From: Leucocoprinus leucothites
Lineage: Eukaryota > Basidiomycota > Agaricomycetes > Agaricales > Agaricaceae
Direction: 5' to 3'
Assembly: GCA_013368445.1 (NCBI GenBank)
Contig: JAACJO010000001.1
Location: 2,976,001-3,040,000, forward strand
DNA length: 64,000 nucleotides
The notes under the pieces are model-generated. The model saw only the letters and a list, made by a program, of their open reading frames with translations, did no database searches and was not told where the DNA came from. This document shows, one piece after another, positions 2,050-58,717 of the stretch (position 1 is the stretch's first letter; every line of letters begins with the position of its first letter). A program made the position numbers and the translations under genes.

Positions 2050-2518
2050 AATTGTTGGTATATTTGAGCTTCCGATCAGGGGCTGAACATTGACGTATGG
2101 GCGTTACTGTTTATCCTACATTGTCATCTCTTACTCATTTGAACATGTGAGGCTGTTATCGTAATTGGGGTTTTGAACTGATTTTGTAGGATGTGATAAC
2201 CTTAGAAATCACCAGCAAGGAACTTCAACCCAAAACTAGGCGCTATACACTCAGTTTCCCGTGATAACATAGATGGCGGGACGGTAAATAGGCTGAAGAA
2301 GCTTTCAATGATCCTTTAACATATTTGTCCCTATGGGCGCTACAGATGAAACGTCCGGAACGGCACAGATATCCCCTTCCCTCGGGTCGGATCCGCCAAG
2401 GGAGTGAGATTTCCCTGGTGAGACGCCAGGTCATCTGTTATTACGCCACTGTCATTCCGTCGTCCACTCAAGCTTTCTGTGCCTTTTTCCCTAAACCCAA
2501 CCTCTCGCTTTAACCACC

Positions 2519-5500
2519 ATGTCTAGGCTACTCCCTCAGGACCGGGGGAAGGGCAAAGAGCCAGTGCGCGATATCATATTCCAGGTGCCACGTAGCCCGG
2601 AACCGTTGAAAGCTTCGAACGGCGTACAGCTGGGGCCTTTGCGAAGAGAGCTCTCCGACGAATCTATGTCTTCGGACCAGCTTCAATCCACAGCCATCCT
2701 ACCTGCTCTATCGTACTCAAAACCAACACATAAAAAACAAGTATCAAGCCTTGCGTTGGAGGTTGGGACCGAATACAAGCCACCGGCCAGAGAGAAGTAC
2801 CTTGCAGTACCCGGATCAGGTGGAAGTAATCGCGTGCGGGGACAATACCTCTCGTTGGAAGACGCCATTGCCGACGACTCGCAACCCGATTTCCGCCCGG
2901 AACGTTTATATGCACATGGAGGGAACAACTCAAGCTCCACATTGAATGACCCAACTCCGGATCGCAGCAGTAAACTCAGTCCCGACTCAAACGGAGGACG
3001 ATACCCTCCTGGCTACAGTCCATATCCTGCCACTCCCGACTACGAACTCAAAACTGGTGAAACCGACTTCCTCAAAACACCCTCCCCATCCTTGTTTCCT
3101 TATGGTTTACCTAAACCTCCCAAGCGACATCCGTTTTCCCAGTGGTTCGAGGCGCCAAAATGGAAAACGTTGGCTATTCACACAATGTTGTGTCTGGCTA
3201 CTTATCCCTTCCTACTCATTTTCGTGGTTATTGCGAAAGATAAGACATTGTTCTGGACGCGAGTGGCTGTTGGTATTGGGTGTGGGATTGCCGGTTTGTC
3301 ATTGGGTATAAGTCTGGTTAGACTTGCGAGGAGTCACCTGGAGGCAGCAGGTATGTAGGTTTTGCCCTGGGCGTCACGTAATTCATTGACGCCCTAATTC
3401 TCTATCAGCTTGGGCCACTGTGATCCATCAGTCGAAATATCATGACCATCCTGGTGTTATGCTCAAGGATATTGCCCCTTTAGCCGAGGACCCAGTGAGC
3501 GCGTATAATGGGCTTGAACTACTATGGAACCGCCATATGTATCCTGGTACTGCGCGCAAAAACCGAATGCATTACGAGTGAGCGTCCAGCATGACCCCTT
3601 CTACGTTCGACTTCACTAACGGTACCATTGCAAGCTCTCGCTTTTGGTCAATACACATCATATTTTTTCTCATCCTCGTTGCTATCTCGGGCCTCCTTCC
3701 GTTCATATTTGCGCGTTTGGTTGATATTCAGACTGAAGTGCACGTGAGGCGCTCGTTTACTTCTCATTGGCGCCTATCTGACCATCTTCACATTTGTGGT
3801 AGAGTCAACGAGAGAACTACCACGAAATCGCTATGAAAGGGGATATCTCCGATGCAGATTTAGAAGGAGCATCTAATCTTGGCGTAGCATTCAATGTGCG
3901 TCCATTGATTAACTTTCCGATCCGAGATGTAGTGTTCATTAACCCCTTCCTGATAGGACACCCGCATAACCTGGACACTTGCACCATATTCCAACCATGG
4001 GGGTCTGCCACCTGTGGTAGATTTTCAATGGGATGCTTCGGGGAACGGTAGTCAAGTTGATACAGTGTATTTCTCAGAGACGACGAAATCACAATTACAG
4101 CCCAGTGGAAGTGGTTTCGGGACTTTCCAAACTGATGCGCCTCCATCCCTCGAGAACAATTCATCGGATACGTTGTCCACATTACGGGCCGGTTTTTCAC
4201 CTGGCAATATTGTCCGGTAAGTGCGCATTTGTTTAGAGTTTAACTTGCCCTTAATCAGAAACGGGCTAGACAACCACGATGGGGCATCAGAATCAAATGT
4301 GAAAAAATCCCAGACGCGCAGAATAACATGTAAGTCGAGTCATTATCAGACAATGTGGACTGCTGATATTCACGCCGCGAAATAGTCTCCCTATAAGCAC
4401 CAACCTTTCCCTGACCTATGTTTTTATTCCTAAGGATACGATTGGAACACTTTTGGATTACTTCGGGAAGCCATTTCCAACCAACTTAAAACCTGCAACG
4501 CTACTGGCTGGTGATCAGGCATGGCCGGCCAACGTAAATCAATCCGCCACTTATCGAGCGGGTGCGTGTTTTTCTGAATAAATTAAAGTGCCAAAACATA
4601 AGATGCTCGTTCAGCTGCCTTCTGGAACAATGGCGTCAACCATAATTACTTCAGTACTCCACTGTACAACATGGGTAAGAATTTTGCATTGTACATGAAT
4701 GCATGCAAATCTGATCCGTTACTCAACCCACCAGGCGACGATGACACTGGTTTTGTCTCCTTGGAGCTAGTCCTGATCAGACTCAACTCCACTTTCGCTG
4801 CCCAAGGCGAATTCCCCGTTCAAGGCCAGACTCTTCCAGACATCAATGGAACTACGACATACATCGGATATGACGCTGCTGTCTGCATAGAGATGTTCGA
4901 ACCATGGATAGTCGAAGTGTACAACAACACTGCGGGTAATCCAACTACTCTGAAAATTGTCGAAAAGAGAAACATTGTGATGGACTACAACACGGGAAAC
5001 ACAGTAGAAAAGCGACAGGGAGGAGAAATCAGCAACCCGAATGTAAGGCGGGAATTAACTTCGAAACGAATCAAGCCCGTATATCTGGCTGCGCATCAAA
5101 ATAGTGTCAATCAGATGGTGAAAGACAACGGCAGAGATTCGTTTTATGTTCCTTCCACGCTTGTAGGTTCTTTACCTGTTGACTAGCAAATCAGAAGTAG
5201 CTGACAACGGGACAGGGTATCTCTTACACCACAGGAAATGGACCATATGGATACACGTCTTTATCAACTTCACTATACGCAAAGGCCAAGGCGGTAGCGG
5301 ATGCCAATAACATGCTACCATACTTCGCAGGAACTGGAGACCTGGTCGCAAGAGCATATCCTGACCGGGTCGTGGCTTTCGCCTCCATCCAACCGGTATA
5401 CATGGTCGTGACACTTATTGCCTTGCTCATACTCGGAACCGTCGCAGCGCTTTCCGTGCCAAGACTTCCGATGAACGCACCCAGGAGAGGGTTTGAGCTA

Positions 5501-5683: not shown

Positions 5684-5965
5684 AAGTCGAATGCTTCGTA
5701 AACTGGGATGGACAGTATTGTACTCGGAACTAGTTTGAAATCATCTTTCATCGTTTTCATCTGAAGGCTTGTATGTAATAAGTGGTCAATAATGTGGACT
5801 GTGGACATTCCAGCGGTACCGTGGGGTTGGAGGCACTGTTGTTGTGAAAGTGAATCAGAACGTGCAAAAACAGGATACAACTGAGGCGGCGAGAAATATG
5901 TAACAGGATATATACATGTAAAATGCGAGGGATTATACGACAGATGATTAACGACCAAAGGAGCT

Positions 5966-8119
5966 CAATCCGACTTTTTCTTCTTTTTCTTCGGTGAGTC
6001 GCTTGATGCAGCAGCGGCTGCTTTTTCTGCTGCTTTCTTAGCCTTCTTAGCCTCCTTTCGTGCCTTACGCTCCTCCTCAGTCTCCTCCTAAAGTCAAGAA
6101 AGGTCAGTGATAGGTCCTGTGGGAGACTAGGTACACTTACCTTCTCAGGCGACTCAGTTACAACAGGCATCTCGCTCTCTCTCCGCTTCCGTTTCTTCTC
6201 CTTCTTCTTTTCAGAGTCTTTCTCTCCCTCCTCCCCGTCGACATCCATCTTGTCAGTATCGTCCTCCTTCTGCGCCTTCTTCTTTGCTCTTTTCTCCTCT
6301 TTTGCTTTCTTCTTGTCCTCCTTCACCTTGAGCACGGCCTCAACAGCAGCCTCCATGGGGTCGTCACGTTGCGTTGAGACAAAATCCACAGCATCCGCTT
6401 TGGTGTTATACGTCTTGGTCTCGCCGCCCATTGAGAATCGTGACTGCTTCTTGTCGCCGTTTTGAGCGTAACGGTTGACACCACCGAGCTCGGATTGGTG
6501 CTCAAGAGCTCTAAGACGAGACTCGAGCTTCGTGCGGTTCTCGATTCCAATGGTGGCTGAGGTTTCCTCGGATTTGCCTTCAGCATCAGTGAGGGCATCT
6601 ACACGTATTGACAAGGCAGCTTTTGTTGCGACCATACGCGCCATCTATTCGGGAACAACGAGACTAGTTATTAATTGGGGAAATGTAGGGCACAAGTGAT
6701 TAAACGTCACCTTTCCCTTCAGTTTTGGTGGTGCTTGACCAATTAGTGACGCCTGAGGGACTTGTTTTAGCCACTATCAACGAACTCCTCGAACTAGACT
6801 CACATGATAAATAAGACCATATTTGGGCGTATCATGCTTAGTTTTGAGGGCACGGAATAGAGCCTTCTCAGCACCGAGAATCTGAACCGTACTAGCTGGG
6901 TGTTTTGCAAGGCTTAATAGACTGCCAGCATGGCTGATCAGCCGTGCACCAACAAGTTCGCCCACGAGGGCAGTTAAATTAGGAGCGATGGCGCTCATGC
7001 GATTTCGGAGGTATTCAGCGAGCTGAGTGCGGTAGGTGGAGATCGAGATGACTTGATCACATAGGGAGTTGATGTGGGCAATATCAGAGTCTGAGATTTC
7101 TGTACCCATTGAAATTTCGGCAGCCGCCTTGAGAACAGCTTCGAGGTCTTCGGGGAGGATGCTTGAGAAGTCTGTCGAAGCTGCATTGGAGCGGAAGCCT
7201 GGGTAGTGTTGGTTAGGAGAGCTCAGGGATGGGTGAAGCTACACTTACCCATATGCCGGATGGTTTTAGCATAGGCAATATTATCGGAGATAATTTTGGC
7301 CATCTCAGGGAAATGCCAGCCATACCATTCCTAAATGTTTCGGGATGAGCTACAGGTCTTAATGGGACAAATGTTACTGACCTTGACACGCATAGCGTAG
7401 ATGTTGATTTCTTTGTCGAGATCGTCAAGCAGAGCAATTGCTTGTACAACCATAGTGTCGACCTTGTCAGGGGAGAATTTAAGCTTGAACCTATAGCAAT
7501 GTTGGTGACAAGTTCGGACAAAGGGATATTTAGCACGACTAACCGTGATAGTGAATGGGAAAGACCGAGACTCATGGTGGCAAGATCTTTAGGGTCAAGG
7601 CCATCGAGCAGCGCTGTAAGTTGACTTCGAATGCCACGCCAGAGTTCATTGGAGCCTTCCGATTGCACGGAGACATTGATGCTTAGTTTTTTCGAGATTG
7701 AGCGTCCTGTCGGAGAAAAACTCAGACGGGCCGTAAACACGCGGTAGGAACGGAACACCCACCTAGACTCTGGTCTACAACTACAAGTGACTCCTTTCCT
7801 TTCCCCTTATTCACAACTTCGTCCGTCAAAAACTGTTTCAGACCCTTCCCTAGCTTCCCTCCTTGAAGAGCAGTGATGTCTTCTACGGCTGTCGCGGTGG
7901 ATGTAAATCGATGTAGTGCTTTCAATTTGAGACTGATTTCAAGAAGATCGTGCAAGGTTAGACGCTACGAGTACCTCATTCCACAAGAATCAAAACGTAC
8001 AGTTTGTTGGCCTTCTCTGGGTTCTCAAATTCCTTCCATAGGTCTGCGCTCTCGAGTTTGGCGCTATCCGATACTTTGAAGAGGCAGTATCCCAGTGCTG
8101 TTTCGTATAGCACGAGCAT
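5966..8119 (-). CDS. NOP56: NOP56 box C/D snoRNP core protein
   Basis: NOP56 is a core protein of box C/D snoRNPs, which guide 2'-O-methylation of rRNA. Read on the minus strand from ATG at 8117-8119 ([22 protein letters not shown]), the protein has the NOP5NT region, a NOSIC-like part ([22 protein letters not shown]), then the Nop domain ([51 protein letters not shown]). [12 protein letters not shown] and a long Lys/Glu (KKE/D) tail ending in KKKKSD follow, with stop at 5966-5968. The GVNRYAQNG...ETKTYN segment before the acidic/basic tail favours NOP56 over NOP58. It is divergently arranged with the carboxypeptidase gene (296 bp between starts). Several 50-60 nt introns interrupt it. Confidence in the identity is high; individual splice sites were only partly checked. 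Confidence 0.95.
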
Positions 8120-37685: not shown

Positions 37686-40430
37686 CTTGACGCAGTCCGA
37701 CGAGACGGACCAACGATCTAAATGGTACCACATATCACTTGAGCACACTCGACTTCTGATACGGCTCTGGTGCAACTCGTGTGATTCACGAGGAGCAACC
37801 ATCTGGTACTGACAACAAAACCGATCACTTTCCGTCTCGAAATAAATCGTACACAAATGTCTGCATATTACAACAGGGAACATCATAGTTGTATCAATGT
37901 ATATAACAGAAATACCCGATGCATGATGACGCTCACGCTTTGCTGTTCTCCGAGATGAAAGGGATCGGCCGTCCCCTTTCGAACAATGATACAGGCCTTG
38001 AACAATGGCGGCATTCACTTGTTGTAGATATTATACAGGCCGCGCCCTGGACTGGTGTGTATGCTGAGATCAATGGTAGTCGGTACAACATGGTATCGGA
38101 GGAAAATAACTGCACCAGTGTTTTTTAGAGAATCGAGCTTGGTAAGCTGGAGGCTAACGACGACAGGAGATTCAGAATCAACGAACGTAGTCATAGAGCA
38201 AGACATCGTGATGTAATAGACTGAGATCGGTGTTCAAACCGAGATATTTGCATGGGTCGCCTTTCGGTGTACTTGATGGCCAGGTGCTGATCCACATGTG
38301 TGACCCTGCCAATAAGCGCCTGTTGCTAAATCGGGATTCTGGTGACTTTGTGGGTGCAGCTAGATATTTGGTTCTTGCCCGAATTCGCAGACAGTGAACG
38401 ACACTGAAGCAGTGACAATAAGTGGGCGTCACGTTAAGAAGTGTGGTCGAAATTTTGGCCGAAGGCGGATGCAAGCAGTGGAAGTACGCCGGCGGTTTAG
38501 ACTTGTGATTGTCTCTTTGACGGGGGGACGAATCGGATACTAGTGCGTGTGGACAAAAGTTCTGTTCTGGTGTATGGATAGTGATGAACGAGGGAAAGCT
38601 GAAAGAGGTGGCAGCGCTCAAGATGAGCCCGCCGTTATTATTTGCGTGCTGGTATCTGTAGACATAATACGCACTGTTCGCTCTGCGGTTGACGATTCTC
38701 AGCCGTTTTCCGTCTCCAATAACCTGGCGAATATAATTGACCACCTGTTCAGCCGGCCTTGATTGTACTACTGCACCTGCCGCTCGGCTGGTTCGTTGCT
38801 TGGGCAGTCGAAATTGGAGGGGAGTCTGGAGAGTCTCCAGGCCCATTCCAGCCTCAGGCAGCAAGCTCCATGGCCTTTCCTCTGTCGGCCTGGGCGAATA
38901 GATCCTGGAACCAGTATTTAACGCTTTTGACTGGTCAGAACTTACTTCTTCAGGCTTTGAACCATTCTTCTCGAGGATTTTATGCACGGAAAGCCATGGC
39001 ATCCACTTGTGGCCTCGGATAGAGATTGTTGAATTATCCTACTGCAAGAAGCTGTAGTCGAGCGAGAATTTTCTGGAGAAGAGATCGTAGCGGACAAGTT
39101 GGTAGCTTTTTTGGGAGGACAAACAAGCAGTTTCACCAGCTCGAACCAAACAACGTCCCTTTCCATGTTCCTTCCCACCCGAATCTAGGCCTGTGCGCTT
39201 CGCACTCTTAGTTCTCCTCTTTGTCGTGTATTTTTTGCCACAGCCGCTCTCTTTTGTCGCTTATATCTTTCTCGATTTTCGGCAGGGCTACAGGGGGTAT
39301 GCAGCCCCTCCACTCTCGGGACTCAAGGGCTCACGCCCTGACCATCCATGCCTTCCAGCAAAGCTACACTTTGACTTTAAATTCTCCAAATTCCTGGCGT
39401 AAGGTTCTTTAACAATTCAGGTGCACTGTATTGGGTTGGTAGACTATTTTGCTCTTGATGGTCGACTTATTCTGATCAATCGCTTTCCTTCCGGTTACGA
39501 TACAGGCTGGAAAAAGTGAGGTCAATTTCCTGCAACTCCAGTCCACAGCCCGCCAGTAAACTACACCGACATAGCCCTGTCTTGCCCTATATTTCCGCAA
39601 TTTTGATTGGAGGAACGAGACAGAGTTCGAAAACACTCGGTTCGTGCTTGTCCCCCAAACAGTCCAGATTTTCGCTCGCAATAGCTGAAAAGAATATTAC
39701 TATTAGTCGTGGCTACCACTGGCATACTGCAAAATAATTGTTTCCCGCTCTTCGACCCGTTGTGCCGTCAAGCCCCCACCGACACAGCTCTCGTCTACTG
39801 ATGCATCCTCCACTAAGGGCCAAAAGCCGCCGCCCACTGTGGGCGACTGTGGGCGCGGTTGATACCATCATATTCCTTGTCGGCCCGATCTAGCCACGGA
39901 CTCCTATCTTCCTCGCTGAGCCTAGAAACATCCCCAAGAGACAGAGGCTGATCTTACTCAGAGATCCTGAACGACGCGCCGGCGCTTGTAGTAGCCAGGG
40001 CCGGACAAAGCATGGTTGTGTCCCAGCCTACCCAGTTGGCCCTTGGCTAGATTTCGTGGCATCCGGGGCATGAAAACTCAGCTACGTCCTAAACAAGTAT
40101 CCCCGTCTGGTGTGCATGTTGCGATACTACCCTCCACATTAAGTAGGTGAATGGCAAAATGACCATTAGTGGGCAATTTTGCAAATTCACCATTGGCGTC
40201 ACATCATGGTCGGTCAGGGTGTTGCGCCGTCTTCGAAGTATGCCCCACCGTTTCTATGCCAGGAGTCTGAGCTATAGTACTCAATACCTCAGCGTGAGGA
40301 TTATCGTTGGTGGACGAGGTACTCGCCGACATTGGCGCATGCCGCTCGTGGAAACCACTGAAAGAGGCTGGGACGCTTTTACCGCTCCCGGGTCTCATTA
40401 AAGGTTAGTATCCAGATTCTTGTTTGCTTC

Positions 40431-41099
40431 TCACCAACCTGACTACCGTTTCTTCGAGGTAGTGCGGCTGTGCAGCAAACACCATGCTTTATGCGCTAGA
40501 CGACATCCACACAACAATTCACACTCCACGTGCCGATAAAACAAGTACGCATTGTTCTTTTCGGGATAATAGGCTGCCTCATGCTATTTTGCCGACTCCC
40601 GTTCGTCACCACGAATCACCACGACTGGAAGATTGTCCCTGAAGACAAGCGCTTATGCATAAACCGACCTCTATATCTCTTCCCCTCCAATTTCATATGA
40701 TATTTTGTCGACTTTCTAGGTCGTACCACTTTGAGGAACGTTCCTACAAAGTATGAAGGCGAGAGGACGATTATTGCGTCCAGGAGAAGGATTTCAGTGA
40801 TCGCGCCCCACAGCTCCTTTTTGCCTAGACTCCCAGGGTTGTGACACTAGGACAACAGGCTTTCAAGCTCCGCTGCGCGTGTAATGGCGGCCTGTGCACC
40901 TTTTTCCGTGCATAAAAGGCTTGCTTTATCCAGTGGAAGCCTCCATCCGCCTCTTGTCTTCTTCCCTCTCCCTTCCCCTGCTTCCTTCACTTTCGAGCAT
41001 GCCCATGCCCTTGTCTCCTAGACTCTACGTCGCATCTCATCCACTACCATGATGCTGGGCCTGATATTCACTGGAGGCGTCACCTTCAAGGTTCAAGAC
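40431..41099 (+). promoter_or_regulatory. Promoter-like leader with TATA-like box and pyrimidine-rich tract
   Basis: A TATA-like CATAAAAGG sits at 40911, followed by a C/T-rich stretch (about 40940-41010) and an ATG in good context at 41049 (CTACC-ATG-ATG). This is the layout of well-expressed mushroom genes. The frame from 41049 is only about 28 codons long and unrecognised. What follows is the degenerate repeat tract. It may be the 5' end of a decayed gene or of a non-coding transcript. Confidence 0.35.
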
Positions 41100-42680
41100 C
41101 ATATGATATCAAGACTACCTCGAGACTCGTCATGACGCAGTGGATTACGATGTGGCCTATTAGGAGTCATATTTCGCGGCACGGTGGCTTAAGACCTTGG
41201 ATCAATACGCGATGGATCAAGAACCCAGGGCTTCAAAGCGACTCAAGGTTTGGCCGAGACTGTGGACCATTGGGGCACCACGGATCAAATTGCAGGTTAT
41301 CGAGACTATCAACTTGCGATGGACCAGGCCCTTGGGACTCTAGACAAGAGGATTATTGGTGACTCAGGGATCTCGAGACGTACTGAATCAAGGCTATAAG
41401 GCTTCGAAGCGCGAAGGGTCACAGTTCGAGTTTCAAGATGTTTTCTGGAGTAAGGATCAAGATCATGGAACGTCAAGACCCCGTTTTTTCTGGTTGTGAG
41501 CATGGGACGCAAGATCTTGGGGCTGTGAACTTGAAGTCACGATGGATCAAGATTGGGACCTAGGACATCGTCCAGGTGGGCGGGTGGTGGGTCAAGAACC
41601 TGGATTGACAAGTTGTAATGGGTCAAAAGCGGACGTCGAAGACAGGAAGGAGCTATGAACTTCAAGCCGCTATGGATCAAGGCCGGGACCTAGGATGTCT
41701 CCAGGTGGGCGGGTGGCGGGTCAAGAGCCTGGAAAGTGAAGTCGCGATGGATTAAGCACTGGGCTCTGAAGGCACGAAGAACAGAAGGTATCCATTCAAG
41801 TTGCAATGGGTGAGGTCTTGGGCCTAGGACATTGTCCAGGTGGGTGCCGGGTCAGGAACCTGGATGATCAAGTCGCACACCGATGAGCTTGAAGCTGCAA
41901 TCGCTGGGACCTTGGGATACTGTCCAGGTGGGCGGGTGGTGGGTCAAGACCCTGGACTATCAAGTTGCTCTGGATCAAGGTGTTTTTCGTAGGGATCGAA
42001 GACGCGATGGATCAAACTCTAGATTCTCGGAGCTTGATATGCCTTTGAGTCTATTAAGACGCGACGAACCAAATCCCAAAATGCCCCGGGGGTACTCGTA
42101 GGATCTGGATCAAGACCGTCTAGGCGACCTCAAATATGAAGGCACGTGGACTACTCTAGAGCTCCTGGGGGCCTCGAGGCGAGCGGTACGCTGAATCTTG
42201 GGGATATTCGTCAAAGTTGTCAAGGCACATGAAGATTGAAGGGCTCCCTAGGGATTACTGGTCAGGGTTACTGAACCGAGCCTGTCGTGTATCGTCGAAC
42301 ACACTCTCGAGACTTTGGGTCAGACACCATTATGCTTTGTTTGGAACCGATTCCCTCAGTGCTGTTTAGGATGTCGATGCCAACACTGTTATCGTATATG
42401 GATGCTTCAGATCTCCGAGATTTCGAACCTTTGCAACCAAAAATCAAGACAACCTAGCACTTTTTTCATTTTATACTTCACAGGGTTTGTCTACCATGTC
42501 GGACACGGTGTCCAAAGTCTACAAAGCCTAACGTTTGACTGTGATTGAACGAGGACTATGATCAAGATGTGACGGCTCGGTTATGGATCATCGAATACGC
42601 CAAGACCGTAGATCAAGACCCTTGAATACTTGTCTGGATTGGTGCTCGTCAAGACTGTTGATCAAGTCAGACAAGATCAT
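41100..42680. repeat. Degenerate repeat tract rich in GGATCAAG-like words
   Basis: Words such as GATGGATCAAG, GGGTCAAGA, CTTCAAG and GAGACTATCAA recur throughout both strands of this 1.6-kb region. The most regular part (41527-41975) has four diverged units, described separately. No protein family is visible in any frame. The tract lies between duplication unit 2 and the WDR89 gene. Confidence 0.55.
41527..41975 (+). repeat. Four diverged repeat units with hairpin around a G-rich loop
   Basis: Units start near 41527, 41657, 41790 and 41885. The core is CCTAGGACAT-GTCCAGG, then TGGGCGGGTGGTGGG, then TCAAGAACCTGGA. TCCAGG and CCTGGA form an inverted repeat in all four units, enclosing the G-rich segment at 41574-41590, 41703-41719, 41838-41850 and 41926-41942. 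In units 1 and 3 the stem is TCCAGGT/ACCTGGA; in unit 4 it loses the inner pair but gains an outer G-C pair. Confidence 0.7.
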
Positions 42681-43072
42681 CGTTAAGTTCGCTCTAAACC
42701 AAGTTTCTCGTGGCCATCTGATTTACTCTCTGGGTAGTAAAGATCGAGATCGACCGGAACTGCCTAGGTCTTTGGTACTCGAGTCCGTCAAGTTTGTCGT
42801 TGTGTATATCCCCCGACCACTTTGAAATGACTTCGGCTTATGTCTGTCTTTAACATCATGCAACAAGAGCCCAACACGGCGTAGACGAATCATGCACTTC
42901 TGTCTCCCAGCCCTTCAGGCTCTACCTGCTTTCGTAACGTTGCCTTTCTCACTGCTTTTCTCTTTTTCTGATATCTGATATCATAAACGCAGCATCGTTA
43001 ACCCTACAAGAAGAGCTGCTACGGCTGAGGATATTAACAGGACTGCCATAGCCTTATCGTAGCGCGGAGGTG

Positions 43073-43525
43073 TCAGTGAGGAGCCATGTTGATAGCGTTC
43101 TGGCAGAATTGGCAGCCATGGACGAGAGACCGCTGTCCTAATTGCTCAATCGTTGCGATGTTCCGGTGACTGTGAGGAAGAGGCCACCACAGGGTGATCC
43201 ATATGTATGTAGAAGCTATTCTTTCCTTGTGCGATTTTAGGAAGCTGACGCCATTTTTGGTCAATTTGCATGAGATGGGAGTGCGTTCGAGCGCGAGACC
43301 CAAGCAGAGTAATCCTTTAGCAGCGAAACCAAGAGGCTCGAATCGGAGGTGAAGATCAAACAAGGATCTTTGTATTGATGATACGAAATGCGAGTAGCGG
43401 AATCTTTCACTTCTCCTATGAAGAGTATTATCTGCTCTTCCAAAGTCGAGGTCCTCTGGGTTGTAGAATCTCATGTTCTCTCTTGTAGTCGGGTTGAACC
43501 CATTTCTTATGCCTCTATCTGGCAC
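43073..43525 (-). other. 150-codon open frame, unrecognised
   Basis: A minus-strand frame with ATG at 43525 and stop at 43073. The text (FNPTTRENMRFYNPEDLDFGRAD, LALERTPISCKLTKNG) has no family resemblance and could be chance. It lies downstream of the WDR89 stop on the same strand. Confidence 0.2.
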
Positions 43526-43614
43526 ATGGATATCTAAACATGGTACTATGATTATAATTTCACTGATAGCGTGACTTCTTTCCTGTCTGGTATTTCTGTC
43601 AGGAGATCATATCT

Positions 43615-45104
43615 TCAAGACCTAGGATACATCCCTACCAGTATCTCATCGTCATCACGATCTCGTTTTTTGTGTGCTCCGGGAGAAGACGAGTGTACTT
43701 GGGATACCATATCCATATCCATATCTTGGTCAACGTTCATGGAATCGTGGGGACTCATAGCCATATTGTCCTTCCATAGATGAATGTTGCCGTCTTCGCC
43801 ACCAGTGATGATCACCCCGTTCTATGACACAACTAAGACAATGTAGCGATCAGTGGTTTGGGACAAGCTTACCGCGTCATCAGGTAATATCGAGCGGACT
43901 ATACCGACATGGTGGCGTTGCCAAAGTGAGTGCAGCGTCCAATTTCCGATTGAGTTTACAAGGGGATCAGGGCTCGTCAAGGTGGGTGGGGTAATTAATG
44001 CTGCGTCTCCTCTGAATAGTGACATAATGAATATCGACGAGTGCTGGAGAAGATGAAACGAAACGTACTCATTAGAACCGGTGTAAACTCGTAGACCTTC
44101 ATGATGAGAAGGGACGCATGTGATGAGGTAGTCTGTCACCCATGTCCGAGACTGGGTGTGGACTGACGGTGAGCGGATGTCCACTGACAGCCGTTGATCA
44201 AGCTTTGTGGTCTTTTAGAAACAGGACCCGCGGGTTTTGAGGTAGCTCACGAACCTCATCTGACCAAAGGCTAAACGTCTCCATATCACTCGCGGCCCAG
44301 ATTCCGGGCGTCGTGCTGTGGGCATTGGGGAGGTACCAACCAGCTTGGGAAATACTAGCTCCCCAGGAACCGACATGTATCACTGCTTCGTCTTCATCGG
44401 GATCTGTAGCGTTTGAAATGCTGAGAAGACCATCCGAAGAACCGGAGAGGACGAGAGGTGATGGGGCGGAAGGGTGGAATGATACTGTTGTAATATCATC
44501 CGAGTGTGTCGAGGTGTGTGCGTGGAGAGGTGTTGCTGGCTGTCGAGGGTCCCTAAACGAATCCTTAGCTGAGTTTGGTAGGGAAACGAGCGGAGGTGGG
44601 GGGCAGACTTACCAAAACATAACGAAAGCATCATCAGATTGGAGTTCTGTACCGGCCGCTACAAGGTTACCATCTGGAGAGACATCGCAGCACAAAAGAC
44701 CTCTTGAAGAGTTGCCCATTCTTGTCACTAGAATATTCTCGGTTATACAGATGAGTTGTCCCCTCAGCACCAGATCACGTACATTTGATTGCATGAGAAC
44801 CAGACCTATCATCCCAGATCTTGACTGAGCCATCTTTCCCGGTAGAAACTAATGTCCTGGAAGGCATTCCCACTACCTGTTCGACAGCACGAATAGACGT
44901 TGTCGCTACATCGTGTCCAGGAAGGATCTGTTTACAGCGAAGAGACCCTTTGTCTAACAAGTCAATCTTGTTGGAAGGAGAGGAGGCTGAGGCGGCGTAT
45001 GCGGTTGGCAGGTTCGCAAGAGATAAAACATATGCATCACCACGGCCTAAAGTCACAGAAACCTGGGGGCCAGCCGCCTCGTACAGTGACAGAGATTCAT
45101 CCAT
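43615..45104 (-). CDS. WD40-repeat protein, WDR89-like
   Basis: Minus-strand gene from ATG 45102-45104 to TGA at 43615. WD40 blades are visible: RTLVSTGKDGSVKIWDDRSG near 44830, then LLCCDVSPDGNLVAAGTELQSDDAFVMFWD, then THSDDITTVSFHPSAPSPLVLSGSSDGLLSI, then a blade with GASISQAGWYLP, WVTDYLITCVPSHHEGLRVYTG, HHVGIVRSILPDD and ITGGEDGNIHLWKD. The paired D-D-A-F-V-M-F-W and HSDDIT-V-FHP features are typical of WDR89. The C-terminus ends with a basic tail (HKKRDRDDDE), as in the family. WDR89 has no firm biochemical role. Several short introns split it. It shares a 386-bp divergent promoter region with the gene at 45491. Confidence 0.82.
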
Positions 45105-45490
45105 TATTTCTTTTCTCGCGATTTCCTTGATATTTTGGGCATTTGTCGTAATTTGTCACGTGTCAATCAATGACTAATGAAACGGTTGTTGCCAAGCCCC
45201 TTTTTTGGTGTCTGTTTATTCTTGCTTCTTCTTTTACCCTCGACTTTAACCGCCGCTGCCGCTCTTCGTCTTCGTCTTCACCACCGTACAGCCTGCCCTG
45301 CTTGCTGACCCACACTCTTTATCACTTGCTCTCGTTTATCACACCTGACTGTCCTGTATAAAGTCTTCTAGACTTTGTATCACATTACTTTCAGCGTACT
45401 CGGCTTTGTTACTCGTTTTGAAACTTGGTCGTTACCTTGCTCCTAGACGCGACATATCATCTGTTATATATCTTGTACCTGCTGGTTACA

Positions 45491-46250
45491 ATGGCTCGTC
45501 AAGGTATGTCATGCCCAGATCAGCTAAGAACAGCCTGCAACGGCAGCGCTTCTTGCTGATCTTGGTTACACCCATTTCTTACCATTGGTGTGCTGATCGA
45601 ATGAATTTATAGCACCGCGTCTTCACCGCCTTCCTCAACGGTTGGATTACACCCTCGTACCTGCTCCTCTAGGTATGTATCCTTAGCCGTGTTTCGTATA
45701 TAACTCCCGTTGACGACGCATCAATCACATAGACCTTTCTCTTCCCTCCATCACGGAGAAATCACCTCTGCCGGCAATCATCGTAACGCCCTCGTCGCCA
45801 GTTCACACCCATGACTTCTCCATTGCCTTCCTTGCTGCCCCGCCTAAACCGACTTTCCGCGAACGCGTTCTTAAGTCTGTTAACACAATTGCAGACAACT
45901 CTTGGCTCGCACAGTCCCGTTCTTTGCGGACTTTCCTCATCCTCGCCCTCCTCTTCTTCATCATGATCACGACCCATTTGATTGCCCACCGAGTTTCTGT
46001 ATACCCTTATTATCGCTTCGACTCTGATACCACCCACCTCCACCTTTCTAATGGCCCAATCTCTAACGCATTGGCCGTGGAATATCAACCCGCTCCGCCC
46101 GATGGAGACGCTCGAGTCGGTATCTGGCACTGGATCGGGTTTGAATTTAGGAAGGCTTGGAGTGTCACAGGAGGTGTTGCCGTCGAGGACTCCTTTACTA
46201 TTGGAGACACTATTTTAGAACGGGCGGATTCACTTTCAGCTCTCGAGTAG
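45491..46250 (+). CDS. Single-pass membrane protein, about 190 residues, unrecognised
   Basis: Three exons with clean GT-AG introns: MARQ (45491-45503), APRLHRLPQRLDYTLVPAPL (from about 45613) and a long last exon from about 45733. A soluble N-terminal half (SITEKSPLPAIIVTPSSPV, AAPPKPTFRERVLKSV) is followed by one hydrophobic helix (TFLILALLFFIMITTHLIA) near residue 100. A C-terminal domain of about 80 residues has Trp and Gly (GIWHWIGFEFRKAWSVTGG). The presence of short 5' exons with matching frames supports a real gene. Topology and targeting cannot be settled from sequence; no domain is recognised. Confidence 0.65.
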
Positions 46251-50690: not shown

Positions 50691-50699
50691 CCTATAGAC
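50691..50699 (+). repeat. Target-site duplication, left copy (CCTATAGAC)
   Basis: The 9-bp sequence CCTATAGAC precedes the left terminal inverted repeat and is repeated exactly at 58709-58717 after the right one. Confidence 0.9.
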
Positions 50700-50887
50700 C
50701 AGACTCCTTCCCAGTCACGGGACGCTTTCTACAAGCCGGCGTTGATCCGGTTCTCACGAACTCGTCAACTGCTAACGCGTCCCGACGACTGGCACAAACG
50801 CACATTGTTCGTGTTTGGCTACACCTTCCCCTCCTTCGTAAGCGGCGCCTTCCCGCGCCCGTAATTACCAAATTCAGTAGTACCGTC
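50700..50887 (+). repeat. Left terminal inverted repeat (188 bp)
   Basis: Exact reverse complement of 58521-58708 except two positions: G/A in AGCGGCGCC versus AGCAGCGCC, and A/G in GTAATTACC versus GTAGTTACC. It contains about 20 CpG sites, nearly all preserved. Confidence 0.92.
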
Positions 50888-51019
50888 GGGACGGGTCTAG
50901 TTGCTTGTGGATAATTAGATCGAACAATGGTCATACACCATGACCAAAAACACAGGGACAAAAACTGAGTCACTCATAGTCTACTATAACATGCAGTCAG
51001 TCAAGGAGTAACCATATCA

Positions 51020-51704
51020 CCTAATGACCACTTATTCCCCTCTTTCACGAGTTCTTGCTGTTCTCCAAGGTACACAACAACTTGATGTAACCCATTGTAT
51101 GATAAACTCAATGTGAGGTATTTCCAAGCCCTGTACATACTTAAGGTAAGTGATACTATAACTTCACGGGCTTGAGATCTCACCATGCCAGCGGCATCTG
51201 TGCAGATCAGACCCCATATCCGCCCATCGCAAAGCTTCTATTGCCTCGGCTCGGAATTCATCGCTCATTCCTACATGTCACCAGACTATGGTTTCCTTTT
51301 TGCACCTTATCCTCTGGTAAGCCCTTCCAAAGCTGCTGTGTGATTTGCTCGGTATCTGATTGACTCTTGGTGAATACCATGAACTTTGGTGGTTTGACTC
51401 CACTGTCTACTAGTAGAGCCAAAACGCGACGCGGGTCAAGCAAACCCACAGCCGAAAGCCGAATTCTTCATTTCTTCAACCATAAGGTAAATATTTTCAC
51501 GATTGTTTGAACAACAAATTATTGTATTGACCCCCTTCATCTGTAGTTTGGTTTTGCGTATTCTGGCCGGAACTTGGCTCCCCATTGCGATACGCAATGA
51601 TCTTCATCTATCGATGCATTGAACAACTTTTCCCAAAATCTCTTGCTTTGCCAAAGCTTTTGGAATCATTCATCATTAAGGATCTCTCCTGTGCTGATAA
51701 TAGT
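51020..51704 (-). pseudogene. RecQ-type helicase relic, C-terminal part
   Basis: The minus strand continues the helicase interrupted by the LTR element. After the insertion point comes ISTGEILNDE-stop-FQKLW, then SIDEDHCVSQWGAKFRPEY. That is the RecQ motif II/aromatic loop region, with DEDH in place of the usual DEAH. Then follow GLLDPRRVLALLVDSGVKPPKF and MVFTKSQSDTEQITQQLW of the second RecA domain, then EAIEALR with a frameshift into GLICTDAAGM, then a GLEIPHIEFIIQWV segment after an intron. Stops at 51666-51668 and elsewhere break the frame. The stop at 51666 is a TGA where the family has Arg, one CpG transition away from CGA. Confidence 0.75.
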
Positions 51705-52078
51705 TGTTGAATCACATGCACGTTTATATGCTGCTACGTTTGTGTTCACTCTCAATTATGACATATGCATTCTATTATTAGATACCATTATGTTTACGCA
51801 CCGATACTTCGTGCGGACTATACATGTTTTACTATACGTTTTACTTGTACCCTTTACCACCTTGAAACAATGGTGTAATACTCTCTTTATAGTAGAAATT
51901 ATTTGAACTCTTTAGTATAAATACCTTGTATTTTCCTCGATATTCTACAGTCAATTCTACATTCTCAGTCGCAACTACTACCTCAATCTTACTCCCATAA
52001 CAGACTAACTGCCTAGTAAAGTGAGTACTGACCTCGTCGTCTACCTTCACCGCTACGCTCCCCATTGCTGCTTTGACA
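51705..52078 (+). repeat. Left LTR (374 bp)
   Basis: Same length as the right LTR and 363 of 374 positions identical. It contains a TATA box (TATAAATA at 51916-51923), the likely promoter of the element. Confidence 0.97.
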
Positions 52079-52090
52079 GGTTATGGGCCC
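52079..52090 (+). promoter_or_regulatory. Primer-binding site complementary to the initiator tRNA-Met anticodon region
   Basis: GGTTATGGGCCC lies immediately after the left LTR. It is the reverse complement of GGGCCCATAACC, the anticodon stem-loop (CAU) of initiator tRNA-Met with C at position 33. With U33, as in many fungi, one G-U pair would form. It does not match a tRNA 3' end, so priming from a half tRNA, as known for Drosophila copia, is inferred. Confidence 0.7.
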
Positions 52091-52337
52091 CGATCACTAG
52101 CTCGATATTGCACTAGCTGACTAGCTCGCTGTGCTTGATGTTTGAGAAGGACTAGATCGACCTGTTATGGGAAGGCCGCTTCCTAGCGCCACTGCTGTAC
52201 CTTGTGAAGGGCCCAGCATCCCTTCTCATTTCTGTGTCTTACCCTAGCCCTTAGGTGATTTGGGTTCGAAACCTTGCTTGATTAGTGCATCACTGCTGCT
52301 TCTAATGAACAACATTGACTGACGACTTCTTTTTAGA

Positions 52338-55300
52338 ATGTCTTCTATCAACAATGGAGCTTCTCGTGTCCCCGTCCTTCAAGGCCCCCAGAACTACCAG
52401 TTTTGGTCCATGAGGATGCAGGGCTTCCTCTCTATGATCACGACCCCTGGAACCCCTCTTACGGGTTGGACTGTTACAAACGGCATGGTCCCTCCACTCC
52501 CACCTCTTGTCACTCTAGTAATGGACACTGACAATAATGTTACGAATGCCGCAGAAGCCGCTGCTTCTCATGCGCTTCATACAGAGGAAGAACGTCGAAG
52601 GAACTTCTTAGAACAATCTGCAATTGGCATGCTTATCCAAGCTGTCCCAGATTCCATGCTCCACCTGATTGTCCAAGGAGATCCCGCTACTATCTGGGAT
52701 GAACTCCGACGCCTTTACGGCACCCAAGGTCCTGCATCAGTATATGGCGACTTTGTTCGCGCTGTCTCCTGGTCTCTCCCTGGAAACATGGATCTGGCTC
52801 AGTCCATCGCTGAGCTCGAATCTCTATTCACTCGGATCGAAGGCATGACCACGCGACTTCCCAAGGTGATCCGTGCCATGATTCTGCTTCACGCTGTCCT
52901 GCAAGGGATGGAAACCTTAGTGCAGTCTATCCTTGCGAACCAAACGCAAATGTCCCAACTCACATGGGATCTGGTCCATAGCGCCATCCAGGCTGCTTGG
53001 TCCCAGAAGATGACTGCTTCCGCTTCTCGCGCCAGCCGCTCCAACGGCCAATGGCAGCAGAACTGGAACCCCGGCAATCAACAACGCCAGGGGCAAGGAC
53101 AACAACAAGGGCCATTTCAATCACAGCCCCAGCAGCAGCCTCAGCAGCAGCAGCCTCCTAATCAAGGCGCTGGCCAGAAGCCTGGTAACCCCCAATCTGG
53201 CAATCCCGGCGGAGATGGCAAAAAAGGAAAATGAGGTAAGAAAGGAGGCAAAAAAGGCAAGGGCGCTGCTAATGAAGCTGCGACCAATGCCGACACCTCC
53301 AACTCCTCTGGAGTCACCACCGTCACTCCTCAATATGGCGCTTCCAGTGCCATCGGTTTCGCTGCCCCCGCTATTGCTAACCGTCCTCTCCTCGCGAACC
53401 GGATTGCCTCGCTGGCAGAACTGGCTAACGCAAGCCCTTCGTCATCCACATGCCACCTTGTTGCAGAAGCGCGAAAGAATACACCGCGGCTTCAGGAGCG
53501 AATCTCCGAATCTCCTCAGTCCGAGGGATATCGTCGCAGAAGCTCGCAAGCTACCAAGAATAAAGTGCTAAAAATTTGGGATGAAAGGCTCGCCGACCTC
53601 GCGGTCAAAGCCAAAACGACGGGCTCCATCATTGAGGAAATTCCTTATTATGGAGGAGATATGGATGAATGCCCACCGTCGCCGAGGATGACACCTCCGG
53701 CTGATCCGATGCTCGAATCCGACTCCGAGGGGGAGGATTCTGACGGGTGGACTTCTGGGTTGTGGACAACGCAAGTCTTTTCTTCTATCTCTGATTGGAT
53801 TAACACTAATACGGTGATGCCACAGCATGACCGAGAAGGGGCCTGTTGCCCAACTCGAGCCCGCTCCCATGTGAGTGCTCCTGGCCACGCTGAACATTTT
53901 CGCGGACTAGTTACGTCGTCTCCGGCTCCTGTATATACCTCTTTTGTATCGCGCACTATTTCGGTCGCCCCTGTGGGGCTTTTATTAAACTGTGATTTGA
54001 CCTCCGTGCCGCGCTGTGTAAATCTATCTAAGTGTGAGAAAGCTTTATGTTGCCACTGTAAGGGAAAGAAAGCGCCTTCACGGGCTGCTTCTTGGATTCT
54101 TGATTCGGGTGCTTCCGCACATTTCACACCCTATTTAGACGATTTTTCTACAATCGAAATGGGAAAATTTGGTGAAATTCAGACAGCTAACAAGAACGCT
54201 CCCCTATTCATATCGGGTTGAGGCACTGTCTTGATCAAACACGAGATCCATGATAATGGAAAAACGATCACTGCGACGACTTCATTGTCTCCTGTGTTCT
54301 ATGTAAAGGGTATGCACAATCGCCTCATGTCTGCCGGTTAACTCTTGGAATCCAGGTTGCGCAGCAAGGCTGATAAACATGGTACAACTTTTCGGGATGA
54401 GTCAGGCAATGCTGTCTTGTCAGTGGCTCCTCGCTCTGAGTGGCAGCCTACGCTACAAACGGTAAAATGTCGAATTGTACATTCGAATGCTTCGAGCCAC
54501 GTTGCTCAGCATCCTGACTATAATACCTGGCATCAACATTTAGGACATCCGTCTAATTGCGTGTTGAGCAAAACTACCAACTCCATGTTGAATGGACCTC
54601 AGGTTTCAATTCCCGATCATTCGCGCCCCTGTCCAGGCTGCATGAAAGGGAAGATGCACCAGAAACCCTTTAACGATAACCCAATTCAAGCAAAAGAAGC
54701 CTTTGAGCATGTTCACAGTGATCTCTTTGAGCTCCCCATCGTATCTTATCACAAGTATAAATGGGTCATGACCTTATTGGACAATTACTCCTCTTTTGCC
54801 CATGTGGTGCTTCTGCGATCAAAAGCTGAAGCAGCTCCCCGCATGGTTGAGCTTCTAACTTATGTTCAGAACCAATTTGGCAAATTGATTCGTCGATTTA
54901 CATCCGATCGAGGAGGAGAATTCGTAGCAGGTACTCTGCAAGATTATCTTAGGGTAAAAGGGATTGAGTTCACACTGAGTGCGCCCCGCGTCCATCAACA
55001 GAATGGGCGAGCAGAAAGATTGAATCGAACACTGCATGAGAAGGCGCAAGCCATGCGACTTCATGCGTGTCTTCCAGATTCATGGTGGGATTTCGCGATT
55101 AACACTGCAACCCATATCTACAATCGCACATCGATGAACTGCATCCAATGGAAAACTCCGTTTGAGTTAGTACATGGACATAAACCTGACATCAGTCACC
55201 TACGAGTATTCGGTTGTGCTGCATATGTGTTCCTTCTGGACGAAATGTGCCCGAATAAATTATCTGCGAAATCTGAACTGATGATCTTCGTTGGATATGA

Positions 55301-57653
55301 TCGGGAGAAGAATTACATCTTTCTCCGCCATACTCGAGGGAACGCTGAGTTTATCTCACCGACTGTCATCTTTGATGAAAAGATGTTCCCAAAATGTCCA
55401 GATCAAAAACCCGTGGTTTACCCTGAGCCGCCTCACACTGAGATTCCTCCAATCTCGACTATTCCGAATGTTCCAAATATAGACCACCCACCTGCACCTC
55501 GAGGAGGAGAGCCGCCTCGTGCGCCTTCACCTCGTGCTCCTCCACGCCCTAAAACACCTTCACCTCCTAGATCGCCAAGCCCACCTCTTTCTTACGCTGA
55601 TCCGGAAGATCGCGATCTAAAAGAAGAGGAAGAAGAAGTTGAGTTACCTCCTTCTCCGGGACCTTCGTGAAAGGAACCTGGTCCACGTAAACGTGCTCGG
55701 TCTCCATCTCCACCCGAGGTACCGCCACCGCAACCTTTGGTCCAGGATGATCTTGATGCACTAGAACGGCTCGACCGCTGGGTCACCGAACGTGAAAATA
55801 GCCGTCCTAGGCGAAATGTTCAACCTCCGAACAGACCAGGAAATGTGTATGGTGATAGGAGCGACCCTCTTGATGTCATCCGACGATATAGGGAACTCAA
55901 CCCTAACTTACCATGCAATTGTGCCCAATATCGACCTATTCCTGGAGCAATTTCCAATGAGGAAGCTCAGAACAGATTACAAAATTGGAATATCCCTCAC
56001 CCGGATAGTAGTATCGACAATAAACTGTCATCTACCGATTTTGCGAAGTTTGTGAAGGAAGGGGGGGTAAAATTAGTTGATTTCCTTCTCGCACAACGCG
56101 CCAATGGGCCTGTTCCCGAACAGTTTCGAGATATCGCGAATTTAGACCCTGATACTCAAACCAAATGGCAAAAAGCGATGCTTGAGGAATTAGACGCACT
56201 TCATAAGCGAGGTGTATACGAGCTCGTTGATCTCCCAAAAGGAAGGAGAGCTATTAAAAATAGATGGGTTTATAACATCAAGTCCGATAATCGCTATCGC
56301 TCTCACCTCGTTGCGAAAGGATTCTCCCAAATCGAGGGAATTGACTTCGATGAACTCTTTTCTCCAGTTGTCCAATATGAGACCGCGCACCTACTTCTTG
56401 GCATTGCAGCACTTGAGGACTTTGACCTTCACTCTGTTGACATCAAAACAGCCTATTTATATGGCAATCTGGATGAAGAGATCTATATGGAGCAGCCAGA
56501 AGGATTCCGACTTCCTGGCCATGAGAAGAAAGTCTGGAGATTACGCAAAGCGATCTACGGTCTAAAACAAGCTGGCTTATCTTGGTGGAAAGCACTCACT
56601 TCATCGATGCTGAAACTTGGATTCAAGCGCTGTAAATCCGACGCTGGCGTTTATCATTTTACACATCCCAAGACTGGCGAGCGTGTCTTTGCGGTCGTTT
56701 ATGTGGATAATGTCTTCTTTATAGGTAAAAAGAATTCCCTGCTCCTCTCTGAGTTGAAGCAAAAATTCATGACCACTTGGGAATGTCGTGACCAAGGTGA
56801 ACTTTCTGAGTTCCTAGGCATGAACATATCACGCAATCGAAAAGAGAGAAAACTCTATATAGATCAAGTGAAATACCTCGATAAGGTTCTTGAGAAGTTT
56901 GATATCCCTAAAGGTGCGAAATTTACACCGCTGCCATCCAGATTCGTCTTCAAACCCTATGTCGATAAGGTAGATCCTAAGTTTAGGACTCGTTACCAAC
57001 AATTAGTCGGATCGCTGATGTATCTTATGATCGGATCGAGACCTGACATATCATTCGCGGTTGTCAAACTCTCCCAGCAATCTGCTGCCCCTTCTAATGC
57101 ACACTTCCAGGCTGGACTCCATGTGCTGCAATATTTGCAATCAACATGCAATTATCAACTTGTTTTTGATGGAGCTTCTAATCAGGCCGTCATTGCTTGT
57201 TCCGATAGTGATTGGGCGCAAGACGGACAGTCTCGATGATCTGTCACAGGTAATTTTGTCACAATAGCGCGTGGACCTGTAAGCTGGCTTAGCCGCAAGC
57301 AGAAAACTGTTGCTTTGTCATCTACTGAAGCTGAGTATATGGCGCTATCTGATTGCAGCTGCCAGTTGATGTGGATTCGACAACTTCTCGAAGAGATAGG
57401 TTTTAAAATTCCTGCTCCGATTCTCTATGGTGATAATATCGGATCTATCTTCTGGAGCGAGAACCCTGTTCAAGAAAAACGCTCAAAGCATATTGATATA
57501 CAATACCACTATATACAAGATATCGTTGAAGAAGGTTCCGTCGAGTTGGAATTTATCGAGGGCTCAAACAATCCTGCCGATATTCTGACAAAAAACCTCG
57601 GTTCAATTCTCTTCAATAAATTTGTTTATTCTCTGGGTATCGAATTTCTTTAG
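52338..57653 (+). pseudogene. Copia gag-pol, one frame with five stops
   Basis: One frame of 1772 codons runs from 52338 to 57653 with no frameshift. Gag (52338-53234) is Copia-type (NYQFWSMRMQGFLSM) and ends in a Gln/Pro-rich tail; a CCHCKGKK remnant recalls a zinc knuckle. The protease has WILDSGASAHFT near 54100. The integrase has the H-x3-H and C-x2-C knuckle (HQHLGH, CPGC) and its D, D, E catalytic residues (HSDLFE, TSDRGGEF, NGRAERLNR). The reverse transcriptase (about 56170-57000) shows VDIKTAYL and the catalytic box as YVDN instead of YVDD. RNase H has CSDSDWA, TEAEY and YGDNIG. In-frame stops: 53232 TGA, 54219 TGA, 54339 TAA, 55668 TGA, 57237 TGA. The four TGA codons sit where Arg is plausible. 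Confidence 0.95.
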
Positions 57654-57718
57654 CGCTTTTATAGTCGCTTAAAATGAAGCGCTTTCGTAGTCGCTCAATT
57701 ATGCATCTCCCGCCATTT

Positions 57719-57732
57719 CGAGTGAGGAGGAG
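57719..57732 (+). other. Polypurine tract before the right LTR
   Basis: GAGTGAGGAGGAG abuts the right LTR. Just upstream lie two copies of AGCGCTTT-TAGTCGCT (57652-57669 and 57678-57695), a short direct repeat in the 3' untranslated part. Confidence 0.85.
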
Positions 57733-58106
57733 TGTTGAATCACGTGCGCGTTTATATGCTGCTACGTTCGTGTTCACTCTCAATTATGACATATGCATTC
57801 TATTATTAGATACCATTATGTTTACGCACCGATACTTCGTGCAGACTATACATGTTTTACTATACGTTTTACTTGTACCCTTTACCACCTTGAAACAATG
57901 GTGTAATACTCTCTTTATAGTAGAAATTATTCGAACTCTTTAGTATAAATACCTTGTATTTTCCTCGATATTCTACAGTCAATTCTACATTCTCAGTCAC
58001 AACTACTACCTCAATCTTACTCCCATAACAGACTAACTGCCTAGTAAAGTGAGTACTGACCTTGTCGTCTACCTTCACCACTATGCTCCCCGTTGCTGCT
58101 TCGACA
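57733..58106 (+). repeat. Right LTR (374 bp)
   Basis: Differs from the left LTR at 11 positions, all transitions at CpG. It is followed by the ATAGT target duplication at 58107-58111. Confidence 0.97.
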
Positions 58107-58506
58107 ATAGTGACTCAGTAGACACCGTTCTCTATATTCTAATTGTCCTTTAGGTCTATATCCCTCAAATTATGTCATTCTTCAAGATTTTTGAAAACCT
58201 CATCTGTACAGTTTTCCGGAAGCAGGTTGATTGCGTTGAACCCCAAGGGCTCTGACTCTTTCACATTTGGTCCCCAAGGATATTGAGCGCCGTTATGAGA
58301 AAGATAAAGTCATTTTCAATGTACAACAAAGGAATCCAGAATGTTAGAGTTTTGCCGGGCCCAGTGGCAGCAATTGTAAGAACATTTTCTCCTCTGAGCT
58401 GAGCCGGAGCATCGTGTATCTGATATATGCACGGTTTTCTGCCCAACTTCGCGATGACATCGCGACAAATTTGGTCTACAGGCGGTAGAGGATATTTAGA
58501 CGGCAT
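58107..58506 (-). pseudogene. RecQ-type helicase relic, N-terminal part
   Basis: Starts at ATG 58504-58506, only 14 bp inside the right inverted repeat. It reads LPPVDQICRDVIAKLGRKPCIYQI, the Walker A motif AATGPGKTLTFWIPLL and the motif Ia region ITALNILGDQ. A one-base frameshift near 58260 moves into NVKESEPLGFNAINL and PENCTDEVFKNLEE, then a stop. The LTR element follows on the minus strand at 58106. Together with 51020-51704 this is a helicase core of about 400 residues, shorter than cellular RecQ proteins. Confidence 0.78.
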
Positions 58507-58520
58507 TGTAAGGCATTTGG

Positions 58521-58708
58521 GACGGTACTACTGAATTTGGTAACTACGGGCGCGGGAAGGCGCTGCTTACGAAGGAGGGGAAGGTGTAGCCAAACACGAA
58601 CAATGTGCGTTTGTGCCAGTCGTCGGGACGCGTTAGCAGTTGACGAGTTCGTGAGAACCGGATCAACGCCGGCTTGTAGAAAGCGTCCCGTGACTGGGAA
58701 GGAGTCTG
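58521..58708 (-). repeat. Right terminal inverted repeat (188 bp)
   Basis: Reverse complement of 50700-50887 with two differences. The CCTATAGAC target duplication follows at 58709-58717. Confidence 0.92.
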
Positions 58709-58717
58709 CCTATAGAC

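Follow-up and report, generated by a model that had tools for sequence, protein, structure and literature searches.

A probable non-autonomous AcademH-type DNA transposon with a RecQ-like helicase pseudogene in the mushroom Leucocoprinus leucothites

How a piece of a RecQ-like helicase gene came to lie between long inverted repeats is the question raised by a locus in the genome of the mushroom Leucocoprinus leucothites. The locus occupies positions 50691-58717 of the window, which is the whole stretch of 64,000 nucleotides that was analyzed (contig JAACJO010000001.1, positions 2,976,001 to 3,040,000). A first-pass annotation of the sequence offered two readings, the capture of a helicase gene by a Mutator-like element (MULE) or a family of elements that carry a helicase of their own. 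The explanation developed here, which as a whole and with its proposed steps we hold to be very likely, places 50700-58708 in the helicase-encoding AcademH lineage of DNA transposons, as a non-autonomous copy with an internal deletion; the filing is made by organization and 9-bp duplication length, from published description. The features of the locus are as follows.

50691..50699, no strand: left 9-bp target-site duplication CCTATAGAC, a perfect match to the right copy
50700..50887, plus strand: left terminal inverted repeat (TIR), 188 bp, starting with CAGACTCCTTCCCAG
50711..50792, plus strand: left subterminal inverted repeat, hairpin-capable; its arms span bp 12-26 and 78-93 of the end (folding of the single-stranded DNA, z -4.7)
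51074..51699, minus strand: helicase pseudogene, C-terminal part, pieces in different frames (51074-51549 matched by the C38 helicase in tblastn, E 3e-11; 51550-51699 assigned by eye, following the frames)
51700..51704, no strand: ATAGT, first copy of the Copia duplication
51705..58106, plus strand: nested Copia LTR retrotransposon, 6402 bp, within the helicase pseudogene (LTRs at 51705-52078 and 57733-58106)
58107..58111, no strand: ATAGT, second copy of the Copia duplication
58190..58506, minus strand: RecQ-like helicase pseudogene, N-terminal part (81-aa ORF at 58261-58506, containing motif I and followed by a 1-nt frameshift that the C39 copy also has)
58521..58708, minus strand: right TIR, 188 bp
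58616..58697, minus strand: right subterminal inverted repeat
58709..58717, no strand: right 9-bp target-site duplication CCTATAGAC

The outline given by the first-pass annotation is largely confirmed. The two 188-bp repeats are identical at 186 positions (2 differences) and are flanked on both sides by the perfect 9-bp duplication. Subtraction of the Copia element and one ATAGT leaves, by arithmetic only, 1602 bp, in line with the 1.6-kb element that had been proposed, and the coordinates place the helicase ATG 14 bp inside the right repeat, as had been claimed. The reported lack of a transposase also holds among the ORFs of at least 80 aa outside the Copia part; the helicase ORF was the single ORF of the window that was compared with Pfam. 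This ORF (58261-58506, minus strand) matches the DEAD family with an E value of 4e-5 and 23.8 bits, just below the gathering score of 26. The helicase was previously called truncated; its identity and minus-strand orientation stand, but it is more than truncated, being a pseudogene with frameshifts and stops. Similarly, the Copia element was said to be complete and to have its own 5-bp duplication inside the helicase. Its insertion site and the ATAGT at 51700-51704 and 58107-58111 are as described, but it is complete in outline only, since its gag-pol region is broken by stops into several ORFs, from which the element was recognized by eye. Its 374-bp LTRs are identical at 363 positions (97%), and it would have entered the helicase pseudogene later than the transposon inserted. 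The arms of the transposon differ at 2 of 188 positions versus 11 of 374 between the LTRs of the later Copia insertion, which may reflect either small numbers or homogenization of the arms. Each flank of the element matches only itself in the host genome (assembly of 47.0 Mb in 110 contigs), so there is no paralogous empty site.

The same ends occur elsewhere in the genome. A sister copy on contig C39 has repeats that are 99% and 90% identical to the left arm of the window element and a different perfect duplication, GAGGCAAGC; the window element is therefore not a chance arrangement. Nine-base-pair duplications flank six of the seven copies for which both ends were seen (five perfect, one 8/9), and a helicase or a piece of one is present in all seven. 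The search of the host genome with the repeat thus bears out the second reading of the first-pass annotation, that of a helicase-bearing element family. With the 81-aa piece as query, at least 11 helicase matches were found in the host genome (E <= 0.001), and in 11/11 a transposon terminus lies upstream of the helicase in the same orientation, at a distance of about 335 bp or less in ten matches and about 880 bp in the copy on C2. Because the terminus is upstream in every match, the helicase is intrinsic to the transposon; it is the family's own gene and not a captured host gene. In the C38 copy, one strand encodes both DEAD and Helicase_C domains, so that the helicase feature of AcademH is present. 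By sequence the best match of the helicase is to BLM/RecQ, yet it falls far below the NCBIfam cut-offs for RecQ families. In a mushroom genome, RecQ-like helicases present in multiple copies can thus belong to transposons and not to the repair genes of the host.

The fuller relatives show what the window element has lost. The copy on C38 (168690-174812) is 6123 bp long, with repeats of 277 bp (98% identical by self-comparison) and the duplication GATGATAAC. The C3a copy (38979-45810) is 6832 bp long, with repeats of 276 bp (98%, again by self-comparison) and the duplication CCCCCAATG/CCCCCAACG, which matches at 8/9 positions. Over 5.8 kb these two copies show 81% identity. A third copy, C3b, covered except for 344 bp of its interior, has the duplication CCATCATCC and both ends, which agree with the C38 ends for about 272 bp. 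All three carry, in addition to the ends, duplications and helicase, a second gene that faces the helicase on the opposite strand and encodes a DUF6589 domain (PF20231, E 1e-40). The remaining two-ended copies are C2, which is 2059 bp long and flanked by GGAAATTAG, and C21a, an older copy in which both ends are present together with a piece of helicase at 77% and in which no 9-bp duplication is recognizable. The terminus motif is CAGACTCCT[T/A]CCCAG, and a diverged subfamily (C2, C3d) ends in CAGACTCCTACCCAGT. One end each was seen for the copies on C34, C18, C15 and C21b, and two abutting ends for C3d. C38-type ends agree with the window end in their outer 15 bp and, at 92%, in an inner block of 26 bp; a search of the host genome revealed no fuller copy with precisely the 188-bp repeat of the window element.

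Mutator-like elements have long TIRs and produce 9-11-bp duplications, features that the window element shares and that fit a MULE which captured a fragment of a host RecQ helicase, although they are not specific. Only the length of the repeats and the 9-bp duplication had suggested the label "Mutator-like", and AcademH also makes duplications of 9-10 bp. MULEs are present in the host genome (five PF10551 loci), but none of the five matches the element by blastn or bears its terminus (<=3 edits, 10 kb fetched). In addition, no MULE transposase was found in any copy, the full-length copies carry DUF6589 instead, and the helicase adjoins a terminus in every match. Gene capture is not borne out and is very improbable here, and the story is corrected to one of a self-contained helicase transposon.

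In the proposed AcademH-type element, long inverted repeats would originally have enclosed the RecQ-like helicase gene and the opposing DUF6589 gene, as in the fuller relatives; the window element would have lost the DUF6589 gene and kept the helicase gene beside its end. The AcademH lineage reportedly goes back to Kojima in 2020. It is described as making 9- or 10-bp duplications, a property linked by Kojima to its helicase (PMC10045372), and as occurring at low copy number in Basidiomycota and in other fungi (PMC10799480). The window element resembles AcademH, as portrayed in these two sources, in being a class II element of fungi with TIRs, an encoded helicase and a 9-bp duplication, and differs in that the window copy is without any transposase gene. 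Putative non-autonomous MULE and Academ elements, told apart there by terminal motif and duplication length, are mentioned for another mushroom, Marasmius oreades (PMC8290104); the likeness of the window element to these Academ elements is one of description and of host.

Kolobok elements duplicate TTAA, and this bears on a second lineage of fungal DNA transposons in which a helicase is found. A RecQ helicase is encoded by KolobokH, which is described as known only from fungi (PMC9587614) and in this resembles the window element. The two differ in their target-site duplications: here 6/7 of the two-ended copies have 9-bp duplications of unrelated sequence, so that a KolobokH origin is exceedingly unlikely.

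Since the fuller AcademH-type copies carry DUF6589, this domain is the candidate transposase. Pfam lists its function as unknown, and the family occurs in many mushroom-forming fungi. A model of the DUF6589 protein of Gymnopilus dilepis (72-sequence alignment) has a mean pLDDT of 86. When it was compared with the PDB by Foldseek, the top 11 rows were all chains of the Hermes (hAT) and P-element transposases, with probabilities of 0.47-0.92 and E values of 8e-3 to 0.1, and rows 12-50 of the top 50 had probabilities of 0.11 or less. No row reached E <= 0.001 (best 8e-3), TM-scores were 0.16-0.22 of the query, and a sequence search of the PDB with the DUF6589 profile gave 0 matches. Three acidic residues are conserved: D302 (94%) in the first long strand, D490 (68/68) at a strand end and E680 (94%) after a helical stretch. 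The catalytic residues of Hermes follow the order D-D-insertion-E, and D302, D490 and E680 match this arrangement of the hAT/P transposases in order only. The fold resemblance and the residue order suggest that the DUF6589 product is probably a DDE transposase, in which case it would be the catalytic protein and the helicase would assist in transposition. DUF6589 thereby gains a testable role as a transposase.

The fold match to hAT and P element would also suit a helicase-bearing superfamily of the same organization but distinct from Academ, in which DUF6589 represents a separate group of hAT/P-like transposases. The word DUF6589 was not found in the literature searched, which likewise fits such a superfamily. 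If DUF6589 is the Academ transposase, relatives in animals are expected. None was among the matches listed (in one search 120 of 241), a negative of little weight, since scoring covered only the candidates sharing most words. In viral contigs one stretch fits a pattern, and none was confirmed as a DUF6589 relative. However, the helicase, the 9-10-bp duplications and the occurrence in fungi already describe AcademH as it is presented in PMC10045372 and PMC10799480, and we regard a separate superfamily as unlikely.

The linkage of DUF6589 to the helicase in the putative AcademH element extends beyond the fuller copies. The host genome contains 10 PF20231 matches at 5 loci, and all five loci adjoin a helicase copy, whereas 14 control genomes gave 0 matches. 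Stops interrupt every one of the host matches, so no intact autonomous copy was seen. In seven other fungal species (Gymnopilus dilepis, Dentipellis fragilis, Crepidotus variabilis, Grifola frondosa, Amanita muscaria, Plicaturopsis crispa and Mycena leptocephala), DUF6589 and helicase matches lie on contigs of identical length, as judged by eye among the matches listed; equal length is a mere proxy for linkage, as the searches give no genomic context. The locus tags of the pair are one apart in Dentipellis fragilis (EVG20_g7564/g7563), three apart in Gymnopilus dilepis (CVT26_001805/001802) and far apart in number in Plicaturopsis crispa, the three species for which the matches listed give both tags. 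Among the matches listed, 50 of 57 helicase matches have no DUF6589 partner on a contig of equal length. One DUF6589 protein, from Ganoderma boninense, is named "ATP-dependent RNA helicase CshA" in UniRef, a name possibly carried over from a neighboring or fused helicase.

The sister copies allow the order of events to be proposed. The window and C39 elements both lack DUF6589 and lie at different sites with different perfect duplications, and their helicase regions are 89-96% identical in three blocks. Both have the 1-nt deletion that breaks the helicase frame, which is absent from C21a and C38. A shared frame-breaking deletion together with different sites and duplications indicates that at least one of the two copies inserted when its helicase was already dead. 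The helicase frame would thus have been broken before that insertion, which probably depended on proteins acting in trans and made elsewhere. The C39 copy is itself interrupted by about 2.9 kb (about 2240-5160 of the extracted locus), which includes a fragment of a Tc1-like DDE_3 transposase. Its two arms (5823-6010 versus 1502-1689 of the extracted locus) have 15 differences, of which 14 are CpG to TpG/CpA changes in one arm while the other is nearly unchanged; judged by this pattern of substitutions, the decay is of the methylation type and confined to one arm.

The ends of these elements have a common internal structure. In three subfamilies an 11-nt tail is followed by an arm from bp 12 and an inverted partner that ends at bp 92-117. 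The window type has CCAGTCaCGGGACGC/GCGTCCCGacGACTGG as its arms, C38 has CCAGGCGCCGGGATGC/GCATCCCGACGACTGG with two mismatches, and C2 has CCAGTCCCTCGC/GCGAGGGACTGG; the arms stay largely complementary over a foldback of about 80-100 nt despite differing in sequence among the three subfamilies. The single-pair difference between window and C38 could be explained by CpG decay on both sides, and the C2 arms are the stronger case. Folding of five chosen ends of the 19 as single-stranded DNA gave z values of -4.7, -5.6, -4.1, -2.5 and -4.2. By ungapped scoring, 8 of the 19 ends outscored every one of 60 simple shuffles; the remaining 11, which include CpG-decayed copies, are weaker. Also among these 11 are the window's own ends, whose arms are broken by a bulge and whose scores were reached by 2 and 5 of the 60 shuffles, and the ends of C21a and C21b, which have no inverted-arm signal at bp 12. 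P elements carry a pair of inverted transposase sites at their ends, and the plain reading of the subterminal arms, by analogy, is that they would be such a pair. A bolder proposal, and one that we consider unlikely, makes DUF6589 the DDE transposase of a transposon with a RecQ helicase and structured hairpin ends, in which the helicase would open or extrude the ends and the transposase would act on a folded, partly single-stranded substrate. To our knowledge no such step has been described for cut-and-paste transposons, and we know of no report of hairpin-capable ends in AcademH. With foldback ends and a helicase on board the same element, why a DDE transposon carries a helicase becomes a directly testable question.

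Several smaller observations concern related sequences. Multicopy subtelomeric RecQ helicases, whose role is described as unclear, have been reported in Agaricus bisporus var. burnettii (PMC7473861) and might be the same transposon helicases; as described there, they resemble those found here in having a RecQ helicase core, in being multicopy and in their mushroom host, and differ in being presented as subtelomeric genes. Isolated stretches of 50-78 bp resembling the outer part of the 188-bp repeat occur on C6, C8, C24, C35 and C2 (C2:3059213) and are probable relics; no partner end with a duplication was established for any of them. Those on C24 and C35 have flanking sequence in common, and at 3.7 kb from each lies a weak inverted motif (2 edits) with no visible duplication. 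The idea that the TIR is a captured coding exon was discarded, as a search with its 54-aa frame returned 5 matches, four of them TIR arms and one a relic. Finally, at C3:383314-383352 two termini of the C2/C3d subfamily point away from a single shared 9-mer, GTCCTTGTC, as if two elements stood back to back around one target duplication.
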